From contig JACROO010000045.1 of NCBI GenBank assembly GCA_016214355.1, forward strand, positions 1 to 32,179: a stretch of DNA of 32,179 nucleotides. Reading direction: 5' to 3'. Source of the stretch: Nitrospirota bacterium. Its GTDB lineage: Bacteria; Nitrospirota; Thermodesulfovibrionia; UBA6902; DSMQ01. Under the pieces are notes generated by a model. It saw only the letters and a list, made by a program, of their open reading frames with translations, had not been told where the DNA came from and did no database searches. Both the position numbers and the translations under genes were made by a program. Below are positions 724-32,179 of this stretch, piece after piece (positions within the stretch are counted from its first letter, which is position 1; every line of letters starts with the position of its first letter).

Positions 724-1941
724 TTGCTTATTGTCCAGAAATACGGCGGGACATCTGTTGCTGATACTAAAAGGATTAAGGCTGTTGCAAGGCGTGTAGT
801 GGAAACTGCGAAAAACGGCAATAAGGTCGTTGTGGTTGTCTCAGCCATGGCTGGTGAGACGGACAAATTGATAAACCTTGCCCATAAAGTTTCGTCTACG
901 CCAAAGGAAAGGGAAATGGACATGCTCCTTTCCTCAGGCGAACGTATTACCGCTGCACTTACAGCAATAGCAATTGAAGAGTTAGGACACAAGGCAATTG
1001 CGCTCACAGGCAGGCAGATGGGTATAATAACTGATACGGTTCACACAAAGGCAAAGATTGAAAAAATCACAGGAGAAAAGGCAAAAAAAGCACTTGACGA
1101 GGGTTATGTAATTGTTGTTGCGGGCTTTCAGGGAATAACAGAGGATGACGATGTCACAACCCTCGGCAGGGGAGGCTCTGACCTTTCTGCTGTTGCAATT
1201 GCCTCGGCACTGGATGCAGATTTATGCGAGATTTATACAGACGTTGACGGCGTTTATACAACAGACCCCAATATTGTTCCCGAGGCTAAAAAACTGGATA
1301 AAATCTCTTTTGAGGAAATGCTTGAACTTGCAAGTCTCGGCGCAAAGGTGCTTCAGACAAGGTCTGTGGAGTTTGCCATGAAATATAAAATGCCTGTGGT
1401 CGTAAGGTCAAGCTTTAATAATAATCCGGGGACGCTTGTTACTAAGGAGGATAAGGATATGGAAAAAATTATGGTCGCTGGAATCACCTATGATAAAAAC
1501 CAGGGCAAGATTACCATAATGGGAGTACCTGACAGGCCTGGTATTGCCGCGAAGCTCTTTAAAAAAATTGCAGATGCAGATATAGTCGTTGACATGATTG
1601 TCCAGAATGTAAGCAGCGACGGCAAGGCTACGGACATATCGTTTACCGTGCCAAAAACCGATTGTAAAAAGGCGCTTGAATTGACAAACGAAATATTGAA
1701 AGAATTAGACGCAAAAGGCGTTACCATGAGGGACGATATAGCTAAGGTATCAATCGTCGGTGTCGGCATGAGGACTCACTCCGGAGTAGCGGCGATGATG
1801 TTTGAAACGCTGGCAAAGCACGGCATCAACATAATGGCAATCAGCACGTCAGAAATAAAGATTTCATGCCTTATAGAAACAAAATATACAGAACTTGCTG
1901 TAAGGGTTTTGCACGAGACTTTCGGGGTCGGTGAGAGGTAA
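724..1941 (+). CDS. lysC: Aspartate kinase
   Basis: TTG start; [22 protein letters not shown], two C-terminal ACT domains ([27 protein letters not shown]). Confidence 0.97.
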
Positions 1942-1957
1942 AATAATTCTTAATACT

Positions 1958-3520
1958 ATGCGTTTTATTGAAATTTACGATACAACGCTGAGGGACGGGG
2001 CACAATCAGAGGATATTGCATTCTCTGTTGAAGACAAGCTGAGGATTGCCGGAAAACTTGATGAGCTTGGGGTTCATTATATTGAAGGCGGCTGGCCCAG
2101 CGCTAATCCTAAAGACACAGAGTTTTTCCGCAAAATGCGCAAAGTCAAGCTAAAGACCTCAAAGATAGTCGCCTTTGGCTCTACACATCATCCCGCACGC
2201 AAAGTTAGTAATGACCAGAATATAAAAGCCCTGTTAGATGCAGGCACAGCCATTGTTACTATATTCGGAAAAACATGGGACTTTCATGTAAAAGAGGCAT
2301 TGAGAATCTCACTCTCAGCAAACCTTGATCTGATTCATAACTCTATTGCCTATATTAAAAAACATGTCCAGAAAGTTTTTTTTGATGCAGAGCATTTTTT
2401 TTTTTTTTTTTAAACAAACCCCGAATATGCCTTCAAGGCATTAGAATCTGCAGTTATTGCGGGCGCAGACTGTCTTGTCCTCTGCGATACAAACGGCGGT
2501 ACATTGCCCCAGGAGATAGAAGATATAGAGAGAAAGACATTAAAAAAGCTTAGGATACCTGTAGGTATCCATGCTCATAATGATGCCGAGTGTGCTGTTG
2601 CAAATTCTATTGTCGCCGTAAAACTCGGCGCCTCGCAGGTGCAGGGAACAATAAACGGTTTAGGAGAGCGATGCGGCAATGCCAATCTTATTTCAGTCAT
2701 CCCAAACTTAAAGTTAAAACTTAAATATAACTGCATAACCGATGAACAATTAAAGAAATTAAAAGATGCATCAAGGTTTGTAACAGAGCTCGCCAACTTA
2801 AGGCATTTTAAAAGACAGCCATATGTGGGAGACAGCGCCTTTGCACATAAAGGGGGCATTCATGTCAGCGCCATTTTAAGGCATCCGGAGACCTATGAGC
2901 ATGTAAGACCGGAGCTTATCGGTAACTCCCAGCGGGTGCTCATTTCAGACCTTGCCGGTAAAAGCAATATCCTCAGAAAGGCTAAAGAAATAGGTATTCG
3001 TTTGGACGCTGACTCCCCTAAGCTGCAGGGTATTCTGAACAAATTAAAAAAATTAGAACATCAGGGTTTTCAGTTTGAAGGCGCAGAAGCGTCCTTTGAA
3101 CTCCTTCTAAAAAAAGAGCTTGGACTTTACAGAAAATTCTTTAACCTGCTTGGAGTCAGAGTTATAGTAGAAGAGAAAAGACAGCATGGCGTGCCTGTTG
3201 AAGCGACAGTAATGCTTAAACTGCCTGACAGACGCATTGAGCATACTGCTGCGATTGGGAATGGTCCTGTAAATGCACTTGATAATGCCCTTAGAAAGGC
3301 ACTTGAAAAATTCTATCCCCAGCTTAAAAAAGTAGAGCTTATTGATTACAAGGTAAGGGTCCTTGAAGCCGGCATAGGAACATCAGCAAGGGTGAGGGTC
3401 TTAATAGAATCAGGTGACGACACGCATAAATGGGGAACAGTGGGGGTATCTGAAAATATAATAGAAGCTTCATGGCAGGCGCTTGTGGACAGCATTGAAT
3501 ATAAGCTTCTGCGGGGATAA
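1958..3520 (+). pseudogene. cimA: Citramalate synthase, interrupted by an in-frame TAA (2411-2413) at the end of a 17-nt poly-T run
   Basis: ORFs 1931..2413 and 2504..3520 are in the same frame. IEIYDTTLRDGAQSEDIAFSVEDKLRIAGKLDELGVHYIEGGWP ... [17 protein letters not shown] ... [15 protein letters not shown]. Confidence 0.9.
2395..2411. repeat. 17-nt poly-T homopolymer inside cimA
   Basis: Direct reading: cat + T17 + aaacaaacccc. Confidence 0.98.
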
Positions 3521-4279: not shown

Positions 4280-6242
4280 ATGGTAAATTTTGACATTGAG
4301 AAAATCAGAAACGTTGCAGTAATTGCACACGCAGGAGCAGGGAAGACCTCACTGGTTGAAGCTATGCTTTTTAATTCAAAGGCTGTAGACCGCCTTGGAA
4401 AAATCATAGAAGGCAATACAACCACCGACTACGAACCCGAGGAGATAAACCGTAAATTTTCAATTTCTTCAGCCCTTGCATTTTGTGAATGGAATGGTCA
4501 CAAGATCAATATCATTGACACGCCCGGATATATAAATTTTTTGGAAGACACAAAATCCTGCCTTTCTGCTGTTGACGGTGCCGTTGTCATAGTAAGCGCA
4601 TTATCAGGGGTAAAGACTGAAACAGAGAAGGTCTGGCAATATGCAAATAAGCATGAGCTTCCCAAAATAGTATTTGTCAATAAAATGGACAGAGAAAACG
4701 CCAATTTCAGCACAGCATTGAACGAACTTGAAAAAACCTTCGGCGCAAATGTAATACCTTTAAATATACCTATCGGCTCTGGGGACAGCTTTGAGGGTGT
4801 TATAGATATACTTGATATGAAGGCTGTTAAATTTCAGAATGGGAACCCCTCAAAAGCAGAAATCCCCGATGAACTTAAACCGGAGGCTGAGGAATACAGA
4901 AAGAAGCTCGTTGAAAAAATTGCTGAATCAGACGACTCCCTGCTTGAAAGATACCTTGAGGGCCATACCTTCTCCGGCTGAAAAGTCGGACATCACGCCG
5001 ATAAAGGGAACAAACCCGAAAAGCAAAGATGAAGTTACAAGAAAACCTCTGGATACTGAACCCCTCTCAGCGTTGGTATTCAAGACTATTGCTGACCCCT
5101 TTGCAGGCAGGCTTACACTTTTCAGGGTCTTCTCCGGGGTCATGAAGGCTGACTCCACCGTCTACAACTCTGCACGCGGCAGCAAGGAAAGGGTAGGACA
5201 AATTTTTTATCTTATGGGGAAAAAACAGGTGCCTGCTCAAAAAGTTGGCCCGGGTGAAATTGCAGCGGTGGCTAAACTAAAGGATGCCCTTACAGGCGAT
5301 ACCCTTACTGATCATGATAAGCCTGTGCTTTTTGAACCTGTTAAATTCGCTGACCCGATGATTTCTTATGCCATTGCACCCAAAAGCAGAGGGGACGAAG
5401 ATAAAGTAAGCATAGGACTCCATAGAATGCTTGAGGAAGACCCTACTCTTAAATTTCATCGTGATACTGAAACCAAGGATATGATTCTCTCGGGAATGGG
5501 TCAGATGCACCTTGAGATTACACTTGAAAGATTAAAAAGAAAGTTTGGGGTTGAGGTATTGATGAAGGCCCCGAAGATTCCTTATAAAGAAACGATTAAA
5601 ACCACTGCGAAGGCTCAGGGCAGATATAAAAGGCAGTCAGGCGGTAAAGGGCAGTACGGTGACTGCTGGATAGAAATAGAGCCGCTGCCTAAAGGCGGAG
5701 GGTTTGAATTTGTAGATAAGATAGTCGGCGGTGCAATACCCCGTCAATATATCCCTGCAATTGAAAAAGGCATTGTAGAAGCCATGCATGAAGGCATACT
5801 GGCAGGCTATCCTGTGGTTGACCTCAGGGTAACTGTTTACGATGGTTCGTATCACACGGTTGATTCTTCGGAGATGGCATTTAAGATAGCCGGTTCTTTA
5901 GCCATAAAAAAGGCTACGCAGAACGCAAAACTTGTCCTGCTTGAGCCGATTCTAAAGGCTGAAGTAATAGCTTCTGATGAATTTTTAGGCAGTGTAATAG
6001 GTGACCTTAACGGGAGGCGTGGAAAGGTTCAGGGTGTTGAATCTCAGGCAGGCGGCAACCAGAGAATCACAGTACTTGTCCCGATGGCGGAGATGCTGAC
6101 ATATGCAAATCAGCTTAATTCCCTGACCAGCGGACGCGGTATGTACACCGCAGAGTTTTCTCACTACGAAGAAGTTCCGTCTCACCTTGCGCAGAAAATT
6201 GTAGCTGAAAAGGCAGCTGCAAAGAAAGGAGAGGAAGATTAA
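4280..6242 (+). pseudogene. Elongation factor G-like GTPase, broken by an internal deletion and frameshift near nt 4960
   Basis: ORF 4280..4981 (IRNVAVIAHAGAGKTSLVEAMLF...DTPGYINF...NKMDRENANF) and the out-of-frame ORF ending at 6242 (PSPAEKSDITPIKGTNPKSKDEVTRKP...ALVFKTIADPFAGRLTLFRVFSG) together form an EF-G-like protein lacking the segment between LLERYLEG and PSPAE. Confidence 0.9.
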
Positions 6243-24464: not shown

Positions 24465-24552
24465 TGTCATTCCTGCGGAAGCAGGAATCCATGGCTTTGT
24501 CATGCTGAATTTATTTCAGCATCTCTGTATTCCCGCCTTAGCGGGAATGACA
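24465..24552. repeat. Nested palindromic repeat between DUF362 and the GHMP/UDPGP gene
   Basis: TGTCATTCCTGCGGAAGCAGGAATCCA ... ATGCTGAA-TTTAT-TTCAGCAT ... ATTCCCGCCTTAGCGGGAATGACA. Confidence 0.92.
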
Positions 24553-28364: not shown

Positions 28365-28732
28365 CGGGGAGATTTTACCATCAAAGAAAGAAAAATTAAA
28401 GCAAAAAATCAGTAGTGATGTCTAACATTCTGCCAAACCACTACAATATTGTCATCCCCGCTTCCAGAGTTAATAGTCTTTTAGTTATCATATAAATTAA
28501 AATAACATCTACATTGTTTTTAGAGAAACAGCGGCATGAGTAAAAAATTCCATATACATACATTTGGCTGACCCTTGGGCTGTCCTCTACAAATTGTTTA
28601 AACCATTCTTTTTTACCGCTTTTAAATCAGAATTAGCATTTTAAATAAAAACAACCCACACCAACGGCTTTGGTCTGCCTTACCTGCCTGCAAGTCAGGA
28701 AAGGTGGCCTGCTTCCCCCTATAAAAAAATCG

Positions 28733-28761
28733 TTGACATAATCGTATAAAATATATATACT
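28733..28761 (+). promoter_or_regulatory. Promoter of abiEi-abiEii
   Basis: TTGACA-17 nt-TATACT; SD cggagg precedes ATG 28797. Confidence 0.75.
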
Positions 28762-28788
28762 TATTGACAAGTAGTAAGAGATTATACG
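28743..28788. promoter_or_regulatory. Candidate operator: inverted repeat CGTATAA / TTATACG bracketing the -10 and leader
   Basis: CGTATAA at 28743-28749 and TTATACG at 28782-28788. Confidence 0.4.
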
Positions 28789-28796
28789 GAGGTTAA

Positions 28797-29387
28797 ATGA
28801 ACACAAGAACACAGGAACTCATGAATTTTTTTCAGAGCCATGGCGGGGTGGCCCGTTTTTCTACTGTTCTGAAGGCTGGATTTCATCCTGATTCGCTTAT
28901 TGCTCTTGAAAAAGAGGGGAAGGTTGAAAAGATTGCCCGGGGCCTTTACCGGGTGGCCAATTATACCCATGGTACACATCCGGATCTTGTTATTGCATCA
29001 CTTCAGGCACCCAGAGGCGTTATTTGTCTTCTTTCTGCTCTGTTTTTTTATGATGCAACAAGCGAGATCCCAAAGTATGTAGCCCTGGCTATTCCGCAAG
29101 GTAGTCATGCAAATAGAATTAAGTATCCACCGGTAAGATTTTGCCGTTTTGCGTCTAAAGCATGGAAAGCAGGGATTGAAGAGCATGAAATTGAAAGACA
29201 GTATAGCCTCGCTAAGACGATTGCCGATTGTTTTAAATTCCGTAATAAAATAGGTATGGATGTCGCCAGAGATGCCCTCAAGGTTGCTGTTACAGAAAAA
29301 AACATAACTCCAAAAGAAATTATGAAATACGCCAAAATTTGCCGTGTTGATAGCATTATAAAACCAATACTGGAAGCTATGATATGA
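28797..29387 (+). CDS. abiEi: AbiEi-family antitoxin (type IV TA)
   Basis: FFQSHGGVARFSTVLKAGFHPDSLIALEKEGKVEKIARGLYRVA (wHTH) + AbiEi C-terminal-like region ERQYSLAKTIADCFKFRNKIGMDVARDALK; overlaps abiEii by ATGA. Confidence 0.85.
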   Translation: MNTRTQELMNFFQSHGGVARFSTVLKAGFHPDSLIALEKEGKVEKIARGLYRVANYTHGTHPDLVIASLQAPRGVICLLSALFFYDATSEIPKYVALAIPQGSHANRIKYPPVRFCRFASKAWKAGIEEHEIERQYSLAKTIADCFKFRNKIGMDVARDALKVAVTEKNITPKEIMKYAKICRVDSIIKPILEAMI

Positions 29388-30298
29388 AAAAGGATATTAA
29401 GAATATAAAAGCTTCTGTTCGCGCCCGTCTTCAAGATAAAGCGAAGGAAGCTGCTCAGCCATTTTCAGAAATTCTGCAATATTATGGGATGGAGAGATTC
29501 CTTTATAGGTTTAGCCGTTCTAAATATGCGGATAAATTTATCCTGAAAGGCGCGCTTATGTTTACAGTTTGGCAAGTTCCACAAAGACGGACAACGCTTG
29601 ATATAGATTTCTCAGCACGCTATGACAATCAGATAGCAACTATTGAGAAAGTAATCAAAGATGTATGTAAGGTTTCGGTGACTCCAGACGGGCTTGTTTT
29701 TGATTCGCAGACAGTAAAGGGACAGAAAATAAAAGAAGATGCTGATTACGAAGGCATACGTGTTAAATTTAGAGGTTTTTTAGAACGCTCACGTATCCCG
29801 ATGCAAATTGATATTGCTTTTGGCGATATCATCTATCCAAAACCTAAAGTTATTGATTATCCTGTTATTTTAGATTTTCCTAAACCCCATCTTAAAGGAT
29901 ATCCCGCAGAAAGTGTTGTTAGCGAAAAATTTGAAGCTATGGTTAAGTTAGGTCTTTTAAACAGTCGCATGAAGGATTTCTATGATATTTGGCTCATGAT
30001 GCGTCAGTTTGATTTTGATGGTCTAAAACTCGTTGAAGCTTTAAAAGGAACCTTTGAACATCGTAAAACTCCTTTGCCAGAGCATAAACCATTATTCGCT
30101 GAAGAAATTTACGATGAAAAATCCGATCGCCAAACATTATGGAAGGCTTTTCTAAAAAAGGGAGATATTAAATACGTACCAGAAAAGTTGCGCACAACAG
30201 CCACAGAGATAGAACAATTTCTTATTAACCCGCTTGATGCAATTTATAGAAGCCAAGAGTTTAGCAAAGAATGGAAATCCGCAGGACCGTGGAAATGA
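29384..30298 (+). CDS. abiEii: AbiEii nucleotidyltransferase toxin
   Basis: FILKGALMFTVWQVPQRRTTLDIDFSARYDNQ (NTase GG/DxD-like) ... YPAESVVSEKFEAMVKLGLLNSRMKDFYDIWLM. Confidence 0.9.
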   Translation: MKKDIKNIKASVRARLQDKAKEAAQPFSEILQYYGMERFLYRFSRSKYADKFILKGALMFTVWQVPQRRTTLDIDFSARYDNQIATIEKVIKDVCKVSVTPDGLVFDSQTVKGQKIKEDADYEGIRVKFRGFLERSRIPMQIDIAFGDIIYPKPKVIDYPVILDFPKPHLKGYPAESVVSEKFEAMVKLGLLNSRMKDFYDIWLMMRQFDFDGLKLVEALKGTFEHRKTPLPEHKPLFAEEIYDEKSDRQTLWKAFLKKGDIKYVPEKLRTTATEIEQFLINPLDAIYRSQEFSKEWKSAGPWK

Positions 30299-30409
30299 GA
30301 AATGATGAAAGAAGAAGTATAGTATAAGATAATGAAAACCGCCTTATACATAAGAGTATCCACCGAAGACCAAGCCAAAGAAGGCTATTCTCTTGAAGTC
30401 CAGAGGGAG

Positions 30410-30450
30410 CCCCTATAGATTCTTTCAGAATCTAAACACAGGGATAGATA
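30410..30450. mobile_element. 41-nt hairpin insertion in the recombinase gene
   Basis: CCCCTAT-AG-ATTCT-TTC-AGAAT-CT-AAAC-ACAGGG + atagata. Confidence 0.7.
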
Positions 30451-30480
30451 TATCTTGAGTCCTTTGCTGAAAGGGAAGGG

Positions 30481-30560
30481 CACCCCCATGGTTTTGATAC
30501 CCGTAGTTTTCCTTATGGAAAACATAGCACGGGTACAGGACAAAACAAAATATGGGGACG
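30481..30560. mobile_element. 80-nt nested hairpin insertion in the recombinase gene
   Basis: Outer CCCCAT-G-GTTTTG...CAAAAC-AAAAT-ATGGGG containing inner TACCCGT-AG-TTTTCC-TTAT-GGAAAA-C-ATAGC-ACGGGTA. Confidence 0.7.
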
Positions 30561-30668
30561 TATGAGATTTATAAAATCTATCAGGATGATGGGATAAGCG
30601 GCTATTCTACCGAACGTCCTGCTTTTTAATTAAAACCCTTGCTCAAATATTGTAAAATATCTGTTACC

Positions 30669-30959
30669 ATGAGTTTTAAACGTAATGCTGTGTTTTTCGT
30701 ATATATCGTTAAATGTGCTAACGGAACATATTACACCGGTTACACAAATAATCTCGAGAACCGAATCAAACTACACAATAAAGGGGATGGCGCAAAGTAT
30801 TTAAAAGGAAAGTTGCCGGTCCAGTTGGTTTATGCTAAAGAATATAAATATTATAAAAATGCGTTGCATGCTGAGAGGAATTTAAAGAAGTTGACTAGGA
30901 AAGAGAAGGAGGTATTAATTTCGAACTATGAGCGCACAAATGGAAATTTATCCCTATAG
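30669..30959 (+). CDS. GIY-YIG nuclease superfamily protein (UPF0213/YhbQ-like)
   Basis: VYIVKCANGTYYTGYTNNLENRIKLHNKGDGAKYLKGKLPVQLVYAKEYKYYKNALHAERNLKKLTRKEKEVLI; the stop TAG is supplied by the downstream hairpin. Confidence 0.92.
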   Translation: MSFKRNAVFFVYIVKCANGTYYTGYTNNLENRIKLHNKGDGAKYLKGKLPVQLVYAKEYKYYKNALHAERNLKKLTRKEKEVLISNYERTNGNLSL

Positions 30960-30985
30960 ATTCATTCTGAATCTATACATAGGGA
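30951..30985. repeat. Bulged hairpin E
   Basis: TCCCTAT-AG-ATTC-ATTCT-GAAT-CT-ATAC-ATAGGGA. Confidence 0.85.
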
Positions 30986-31002
30986 TTAGAAAAAAAGGTT
31001 GC

Positions 31003-31038
31003 CCCCGTAGTTTTGCTATTGCAAAACTGGACACGGGG
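31003..31038. repeat. Bulged hairpin A
   Basis: CCCCGT-AG-TTTTGC-TATT-GCAAAA-CT-GGAC-ACGGGG. Confidence 0.9.
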
Positions 31039-31098
31039 ACACCCATGTCTAAGTTTTCAGGTGGTATTTTATGAGATACTACTCCAGAATGTTTAGGT

Positions 31099-31139
31099 GC
31101 TCCCACAGATTTGCCGCTGCAAATCTAGGACGTGGGAGC
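31099..31139. repeat. Bulged hairpin B
   Basis: GCTCCCAC-AG-ATTTGC-CGCT-GCAAAT-CT-AGGAC-GTGGGAGC. Confidence 0.9.
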
Positions 31140-31194
31140 AACCGTGTCCAGGTTTTGAGGAAAATATGAAATATTTTCTCAAAACCTACGGTTG
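31139..31194. repeat. Bulged hairpin F overlapping the miaB start (opposite orientation)
   Basis: CAACCGT-GTCC-AG-GTTTTGAGGAAAATAT-gaa-ATATTTTCTCAAAAC-CT-ACGGTTG. Confidence 0.9.
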
Positions 31195-32179
31195 TCAGAT
31201 GAATGTCCACGACTCTGAGAAGATTGCAGGTATTCTCTCGGAATCAGGATATAATGCGGCAGATTCTGTCACAGATGCTGATGTGATAGTTCTGAACACA
31301 TGCAGTGTGAGGCAAAAGGCAGAGCAGAAGTTTTTTAGTGAACTGGGAAGGCTGAAAGCAGAAAAAAAGAAAAATCCTGATTTAAAAATTGCTGTTGCCG
31401 GCTGTATTGCACAGCAAAGGGGCAGCGATATATTTGAACGTTTCCCTTATGTTGATTTTATTTTTGGTCCTCAGAATATTGATAGTCTTGAGAAGTGGAT
31501 ATCAGACAAACCACAGGCAATAGACGCCAGACAACAGACATCAGACTACGCAGTACGCGGTACGAGATACGCAGAACAGAATCCTATAAAAAGGGAAGGG
31601 CAGGTCAAGGCATGGGTAGCTATAATGCACGGTTGTAACAACTTTTGTTCGTACTGTGTTGTGCCTTATACCCGCGGCAGGGAAAAAAGCAGGCACAGCA
31701 TGGACATTCTTAATGAGATTAGGGAAATTGCAGTGCAGGGGTTTAAAGAGGTGGCACTTCTTGGGCAGAATGTTAATTCCTATGGCAAAAATCTTCCTGA
31801 AAACATAGACTTTCCAGATTTACTTAAAGTAATCCATGAGATAAATGACATACAAAGGATTAGATTTATCACCTCTCACCCTCGGGACCTTTCAGAAAAA
31901 CTGATAAAAACAATGCGTGACCTGCCTAAAGTATGTGAGCATATGCACCTGCCCATACAGGCAGGCTCTGACAAAATCTTATCACTTATGAACAGGGGGT
32001 ACTCATACATTCAGTACAAAGAGAAAATTGACATGCTCAGAACAGAAATCCCTGATATTGCTATAACAACAGATATAATCGTTGGTTTCCCCGGGGAGAC
32101 TGATGATGATTTTGAATGTACAGTTAACGCCTTGAAGGAGATAGAGTTTGACGGTATTTTTGCCTTTAAATATTCAAAA
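31166..32179 (+). CDS. miaB: tRNA-2-methylthio-N6-dimethylallyladenosine synthase (partial, runs off the window)
   Basis: MKYFLKTYGCQMNVHDSEKIAGIL...NTCSVRQKAEQKFFSELG...AWVAIMHGCNNFCSYCVVPYTRGREKSR...HLPIQAGSDKILSLMNRGY...TDIIVGFPGET. Confidence 0.97.
   Translation, partial: MKYFLKTYGCQMNVHDSEKIAGILSESGYNAADSVTDADVIVLNTCSVRQKAEQKFFSELGRLKAEKKKNPDLKIAVAGCIAQQRGSDIFERFPYVDFIFGPQNIDSLEKWISDKPQAIDARQQTSDYAVRGTRYAEQNPIKREGQVKAWVAIMHGCNNFCSYCVVPYTRGREKSRHSMDILNEIREIAVQGFKEVALLGQNVNSYGKNLPENIDFPDLLKVIHEINDIQRIRFITSHPRDLSEKLIKTMRDLPKVCEHMHLPIQAGSDKILSLMNRGYSYIQYKEKIDMLRTEIPDIAITTDIIVGFPGETDDDFECTVNALKEIEFDGIFAFKYSK
31522..31577. repeat. Heptad-stutter tandem, in frame in the miaB linker
   Basis: AGACGCC AGACAAC AGACATC AGACTAC GCAGTAC GCGGTAC GAGATAC GCAGAAC; encodes DARQQTSDYAVRGTRYAEQ. 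Confidence 0.9.

Follow-up and report, generated by a model that had tools for sequence, protein, structure and literature searches.

GIY-YIG homing endonuclease elements, whether carried in introns or as free-standing genes, link a small nuclease gene to a target in a conserved housekeeping gene. Single-domain GIY-YIG proteins of the UPF0213 type are also found in the Ssn family of single-strand nucleases, studied in Neisseria, whose targets are repeats that lie near the gene and elsewhere; to our knowledge these repeats have not been described as the replacement start of a housekeeping gene. Short, dispersed and imperfect hairpins are characteristic of REP sequences with their RAYT partners and of other palindromic repeats. 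The dusA islands enter a tRNA-modification gene close to its 5′ end and supply a new 5′ end while the original one marks the outer border of the island, and the MiaB-like gene rimO is named among the targets of mobile elements in the same source (PMC4482086). No title on GIY-YIG together with miaB was found in the open-licence literature searched.

The locus described here lies on contig JACROO010000045.1 of a Nitrospirota bacterium, of which a stretch of 32,179 nucleotides, referred to as the window, was analysed. From comparison of sequences we consider it likely that the hairpin at the start of miaB in this window forms, as hairpin B, the right-hand boundary of a small selfish element of homing type, one that is directed at miaB and provides it with a new 5′ end.

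The hairpin at the miaB start

Read directly from the sequence, the hairpin at 31139–31194 has 24 base pairs and two bulges, one of four nucleotides (GTCC) and one of a single G. The 5′ arm runs through CAACCGT (31139–31145), the GTCC bulge (31146–31149), AGGTTTTGAG (31150–31159), the bulged G (31160) and AAAATAT (31161–31167), the loop is GAA (31168–31170), and the 3′ arm consists of ATATTTT CTCAAAACCT (31171–31187) followed by ACGGTTG (31188–31194). The first codons of miaB (31166–32179, plus strand; UPF0004 and Radical_SAM domains, running past the contig end), from 31166 on, make up this 3′ arm, so that the hairpin both mirrors and contains the present gene start. Its DNA fold of −19.5 kcal/mol (z −6.7) is equalled by 0 of 200 shuffles, and the miaB start compared with its own upstream DNA gives a mirror score of 37 against a shuffle maximum of 23, values on which a chance palindrome is rejected. 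The hairpin described in an earlier note on this DNA is therefore real, with an upstream arm that mirrors the miaB start well above chance. The same note had placed the ATG (31166–31168) in the loop, which is correct for the unpaired G only, the A and the T closing the stem; it had also held the gene arm to be fixed by protein conservation, which is true of its T-Y-G-C end and not of the first codons, as these vary among genomes of the order.

GTCC was rightly taken for the bulge of a hairpin family. The hairpins near miaB in which one arm is interrupted by a bulge of 4 or 5 nt are H6, H7, H4, H1, H2 and H3, the last being the hairpin at the gene start, and a covariance model (R1) built from H1, H4, H6 and H7 only detects the untrained H2 (E 6.5e-9) and H3 (minus strand, E 3.4e-6). 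Family stems vary while the 4-nt bulge stays. Nested hairpins number 8 of 56 in a strict test, and hairpins inside bulges were seen by eye in five loci of genome G018 (L140, L144, L149, L152 and L154). Rfam holds no family matching the hairpin at 31139–31194 at E ≤ 1.

Across 48 related genomes R1 gives 7 matches in the genome of the window, 35 in G007, 34 in G018 and one in each of four genomes (E 0.0036 to 0.68), with zero in the remaining 41. Outside this contig the window's own genome yields only a weak match (C99, E 0.74), and a 204 kb sample of it contains no further GTCC-bulge hairpin. The shortness of the hairpins, their many copies in some genomes and the Y1 genes present in G000 and G007 are what would be expected if a Y1 (RAYT) transposase mobilized the hairpins in the manner of REP sequences; G018, however, combines its 34 hairpin matches with zero Y1 (PF01797) matches, which suggests that such a transposase is not needed and leaves this explanation scarcely credible.

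A sequence pattern of the hairpin shape picked out 50 stretches among genome contigs, many of them in Bacterium BMS3Bbin09, a Planctomycetota genome, Omnitrophota, Desantisbacteria, Elusimicrobia and further groups; the few isolated hits in Amycolatopsis, Roseovarius, Helicobacter and Bacillaceae seem to be due to chance. The discovery of the arm as a dispersed repeat far from miaB had been named in the earlier note as what would speak against its account, and the occurrence of the hairpin family in unrelated genomes comes close to this. A viral source was considered and rejected: the one pattern match in viral contigs is identical in sequence to the Metabacillus match and was judged to be chance. 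Relatives of the GIY-YIG protein were absent from viral contigs and were found in plasmid and phage collections only at less than 60% identity.

The displaced start and the inserted interval

The present miaB start, MKYFLKTYGC, is not of the type expected for the resident gene. At 28536–28570 (plus strand), 2.6 kb upstream of miaB, ATGAGTAAAAAATTCCATATACATACATTTGGCTG encodes MSKKFHIHTFG followed by a stop (translation MSKKFHIHTFG, stop, PLG) and is cut at GGCTG/ACC. This N-terminal type is common to the family member G003 (MSKKFHIHTFGCQMN) and to most relatives in the order, which identifies the sequence as the displaced 5′ end of the resident miaB. Genome G026 has a displaced miaB start with the identical cut GGCTG/ACC, followed by a small gene pair that by eye looks HicAB-like. 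In a junction-pattern search for displaced starts 6 of 230 genomes matched, the matches in two (the window's own genome and G026) being miaB starts and those in four lying in other genes; no displaced start is present within 35 kb upstream in G023 or within 31 kb upstream in G010. Given the displaced order-type start and the G026 cut, the interval 28571–31195 reads as inserted DNA with which the present start came in, and the miaB codons to about 31195 would be element-supplied, with the remainder resident. Since the present start arrived in this way, both hairpin arms most likely arrived together. The locus thus does not support the view that the upstream arm is a local copy of a gene arm of old, resident origin, nor does it show local inverted duplication as the mechanism.

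Within this interval the AbiEi/AbiEii toxin–antitoxin genes (28797–30298, plus strand; PF13338 E 6.6e-8, PF08843 E 5.3e-41) form island cargo and are followed by an N-terminal serine recombinase remnant (30332–30629, plus strand), the joined pieces of which match Resolvase PF00239 at E 7.2e-13. The remnant is shortened and carries two hairpin inserts on the plus strand, namely H6 (30409–30446; an R1 training sequence, 47.0 bits, fold z −2.9) and an 80-nt insert (30481–30560; fold z −4.1) in which an outer hairpin holds H7 (30497–30537) in its loop. A hairpin also occupies the matching site of a homologous recombinase gene in G007 (L136:556). Serine recombinase genes of G007 are hairpin-broken as well (L136:300–860 and L136:2840–2960), one insert being nested three deep, and the position of the AbiE pair is occupied by the HicAB-like pair in G026.

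A recombinase remnant and AbiE cargo between the displaced and present starts, together with the HicAB-like island of G026 behind the same cut, raise the question of a serine-recombinase island that used the miaB start as attB and resupplied it like the dusA islands, the hairpin being only an arm of the attachment site. We regard this as quite unlikely for the present start, for the recombinase of the window is itself hairpin-broken and inserts of 407–465 bp at two other loci (L249 and L247) hold a GIY-YIG gene only, although an earlier insertion at this position may have been of that kind. The AbiE pair and broken recombinase, which are not part of the unit seen elsewhere, read as such an earlier island or as cargo.

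A GIY-YIG nuclease gene of the UPF0213 type (30669–30959, plus strand; PF01541 E 5.4e-18) is overlapped at its 3′ end by H4 (30950–30987, plus strand; bulge ATAC), an R1 training sequence. From this gene towards miaB there follow H1 (31001–31041, plus strand; bulge GGAC), also used in training, which would be hairpin A of an older unit; a sequence at 31039–31100 (plus strand) that opens with ACACCCATGTCT, as hairpin B does elsewhere, and contains a worn miaB start (ATGAGATACTACTCCAGAATGTTTAGGTGC; ATGAGATACTAC..AGGTGC, encoding MRYYSRMFRC); H2 (31097–31143, plus strand; bulge AGGAC, fold z −6.5) right after the TGC codon of that worn start, as hairpin A of a newer unit; and H3, the hairpin B described above. 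Two rounds of insertion at one codon are probably the simplest account of this arrangement: an older unit (H1 and the worn hairpin B) would have inserted first, and the newer H2–H3 unit would then have entered behind the TGC codon of the worn start. Because the worn hairpin B folds no better than its shuffles (z 0.69), it is called a probable decayed hairpin B and the older round only a probable one.

Among solved chains the nearest to the GIY-YIG protein of the window are UPF0213 proteins (1zg2, E 4.7e-16; 1ywl, E 5e-14). The residues Y12, Y22, R32, H36 and E69 are invariant in 11 GIY-YIG homologues, the catalytic ones being among Y12, Y22, R32 and E69, and the predicted nuclease of the window is intact in these positions. 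A match of at least 60% identity is present in 3 of 295 Nitrospirota genomes, the window's own included. G010 and G023 carry GIY-YIG genes 73–74% identical to that of the window, upstream of and near miaB and without hairpins, possibly an old, worn insertion; genes of arsenic type (by eye) stand between GIY-YIG and miaB in both (G023:C27, L176; G010:C56, L054). G007 is rich in hairpins, yet its best GIY-YIG match is 44%, and in G018 GIY-YIG and miaB are on different contigs. All four genomes count against the element proposed here.

Elsewhere in the window, an inverted repeat at 24465–24552 (TGTCATTCCTGCGGAAGCAGGAATCCA / TGTATTCCCGCCTTAGCGGGAATGACA) is of the widespread dRS3-like kind. Two conserved genes named by eye from their translations, one elongation factor G-like (4280–6242) and one citramalate/homocitrate synthase-like (1931–3520), are each broken up into two frames that overlap or adjoin, which read as frameshifts or assembly errors.

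Recurrence of the unit in other phyla

The order GIY-YIG, hairpin A, hairpin B, miaB is found again in Omnitrophota, Phycisphaerae, Desantisbacteria, Elusimicrobia and FCPU426, and in 5 of 51 hairpin loci the GIY-YIG gene is 60–72% identical to that of the window. Hairpin B in those loci typically reads CACCCAT-NNNN-AGGTTT... and mirrors a miaB start ending AAACCTATGGGTGY, then QMN; the mirror of L197 is shorter and bulgeless. Among 19 genomes picked by the hairpin pattern alone (a subset of those behind the 50 stretches, with the chance-looking ones and BMS3Bbin09 left out) 14 have a GIY-YIG homologue at E ≤ 1e-15, the best matches being 54–72% identical, against the above 3 of 295 Nitrospirota genomes that reach 60%, and ten of these 14 genes lie within about 600 bp upstream of miaB.

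Selection by protein only leads to the same association from the other side. In Omnitrophota a homologue at E ≤ 1e-22 is present in 81 of 384 genomes, and at 15 of 84 GIY-YIG loci, one of them worn (L322), miaB lies on the same strand no more than 260 bp downstream, where chance would give about 0.03 by our own estimate from some 1,700 genes per genome; miaB is within 1.4 kb at four further loci. The 69 of 84 homologues that are not directly before miaB count against the model. At one locus, L280, the start is mirrored but no MiaB match is present. In the Desantisbacteria group both of the two genomes searched gave a GIY-YIG match, and both were already in the set. In the Planctomycetota locus L252, tandem repeats from about position 1752, each ending in a mimic of a miaB start (KVLVKTFGC), lie between GIY-YIG and the real miaB.

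Displaced starts are also present in these phyla. MNKIYVKTYGC stands right before GIY-YIG in L249 (Omnitrophota; same place as L232), MKFYLRTYGC and KKRLAIVTYGC precede GIY-YIG in L245 and L247 respectively, and in L227 a displaced MKFFFRTYGC is followed by hairpins A and B and the new start with no gene between. Old and new start motifs are 407 bp apart in L249 and 465 bp apart in L247, which leaves no room for another enzyme, and the unit made of hairpins only comes to about 107 bp in L227 and about 95 bp in the window (H2 and H3). No pair of empty and filled strains was seen among the genomes compared.

Mirrored miaB starts recur in distant genomes, at 18 of 22 GIY-YIG-linked miaB loci as against 0 of 27 control miaB starts from the order (Fisher p 6e-10). 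A start was counted as mirrored when its score was reached by at most 2 of 500 shuffles for an 18-nt arm, a 26-nt arm missing short palindromes inside the reading frame; three more loci reached 3–4 of 500, and L295 fails the mirror test. The 22 loci comprise seven from hairpin-selected genomes, three in both sets (L241, L247 and L249), the window and 11 selected by protein only, of which 8 passed; L322 was left out because its start is worn. A hairpin that controls the translation or RNA of miaB, its stem masking the ribosome-binding GAGG together with part of the ATG, would agree with the presence of most of the GAGG and two ATG bases in the stem of the window and with an ATG in the loop of hairpin B at several loci. 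The unmirrored controls and the absence of an Rfam match speak against it, and it does not account for the nuclease link, the displaced starts or the dispersed copies; we therefore think it very unlikely as the reason for the hairpin, although translation control could be a side effect.

The two arms of hairpin B covary. Over 11 long-hairpin loci (the row of L245 is misplaced and was kept in the counts) the Watson–Crick fraction of the inner arm is 0.89 with its own partner and 0.66 with a swapped one, and inner pairs 7 and 8 show two-sided changes. Start sequences that differ across genomes while their upstream arms match are also what repeated local copying or stem correction would give, and a local inverted duplication, in which polymerase template switching copied the miaB start backwards upstream with GTCC as a slip, would explain the near-perfect mirror of the arms and the likeness, by eye, of the new and displaced starts in L227. 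It remains an unlikely explanation, however, when the present start of the window is not the resident one, when the mirror recurs in company with hairpin A, the bulge and a GIY-YIG gene, and when the hairpin belongs to a dispersed family. The first origin of such a unit may nevertheless have been a local inverted duplication.

On a tree of 28 MiaB proteins from which the N-termini were removed, the N-terminal type of the present start requires five changes, and well-supported branches force at least three of these; the types scatter over the tree like shuffled labels (176 of 500 shuffles as low). As the labels are no more clustered than shuffled ones, the tree fits repeated replacement but also convergence and provides no proof.

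In about nine loci the mirrored start ends in GG.TG/[AG]CC and is not in miaB, for which the element model gives no account. Mirrored or displaced starts ending GG.TG into [AG]CC.. were noted in L279, L286, L302, L307, L313, L318, L251, L264 and L229, at 28571 in the window and in L096; they frequently continue [AG]CCGTTGG.. TTATAG .. and may represent a second recurrent junction or a second type of element.

The proposed element and its parallels

A full unit is made up of three parts: a gene for a UPF0213-type GIY-YIG nuclease, hairpin A with its bulge, and hairpin B, the 3′ arm of which serves miaB as a substitute 5′ end. It measures 407–465 bp with the nuclease, the hairpins alone about 95–107 bp. 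Units are located in miaB immediately behind GGNTGY, the Gly–Cys codons within its conserved motif T-[YF]-G-C-Q-M-N; the old start has been pushed upstream and the unit's own start has taken over, by which the miaB reading frame survives. This architecture, its site, the displaced starts, the mirrored arms and their recurrence in several phyla are what the comparison of genomes shows. The GIY-YIG enzyme may cut the T-Y-G-C sequence of miaB, or a single-stranded or hairpin form of it, and the unit may enter by repair or by strand transfer through the similar hairpin end. Units of hairpins A and B only, and single hairpins, would be non-autonomous derivatives. We file the element as homing-type and gene-end-restoring. 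A bolder reading, on which our judgement is evenly balanced, is that it forms a class of mobile DNA of its own: a unit of 400 bp, built from a nuclease gene and palindromes and with 100-bp derivatives, would home to the miaB start repeatedly in several uncultured phyla and provide a mirrored replacement start, one strand of its terminal hairpin being coding sequence of the gene attacked.

Should the proposed element be confirmed, a minimal selfish element would persist at a coding site of high conservation, hidden by the new start with which it provides the gene, and a hairpin that probably serves movement would double as coding sequence. It would offer a short, defined substrate together with its enzyme, a GIY-YIG protein of about 90 residues, and a reason why the first ten miaB codons change often among relatives while T-Y-G-C stays. 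Hairpins at start codons would then be best interpreted as regulators or local duplications only after their neighbours have been checked.

The likeness to REP/RAYT systems lies in the short, dispersed hairpins, and the differences in the hairpin-rich G018 without Y1 and in a 4-nt bulge that is constant amid varying stems. With Ssn the unit shares a single-domain UPF0213-type GIY-YIG protein and differs by its insertion into miaB. In contrast to the GIY-YIG homing elements the miaB unit does not involve splicing: it replaces the 5′ end and terminates in a hairpin mirroring that end, the miaB frame being restored by the replacement start and not by joining. The dusA islands resemble it in that a new 5′ end is given and the old one is displaced to the border (28536–28570 and 31166–31195 in the window; L227, L245, L247 and L249), but carry a dedicated integrase and large cargo, whereas the smallest miaB units have the GIY-YIG gene only or are hairpins of about 100 bp; no integrase lies inside the element in L249 or L247, which hold GIY-YIG only, and the window has only the broken recombinase remnant. 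The dusA islands are the best parallel for the outcome, the GIY-YIG homing elements for the enzyme, and Ssn for the pairing of a small GIY-YIG protein with a set of repeats.
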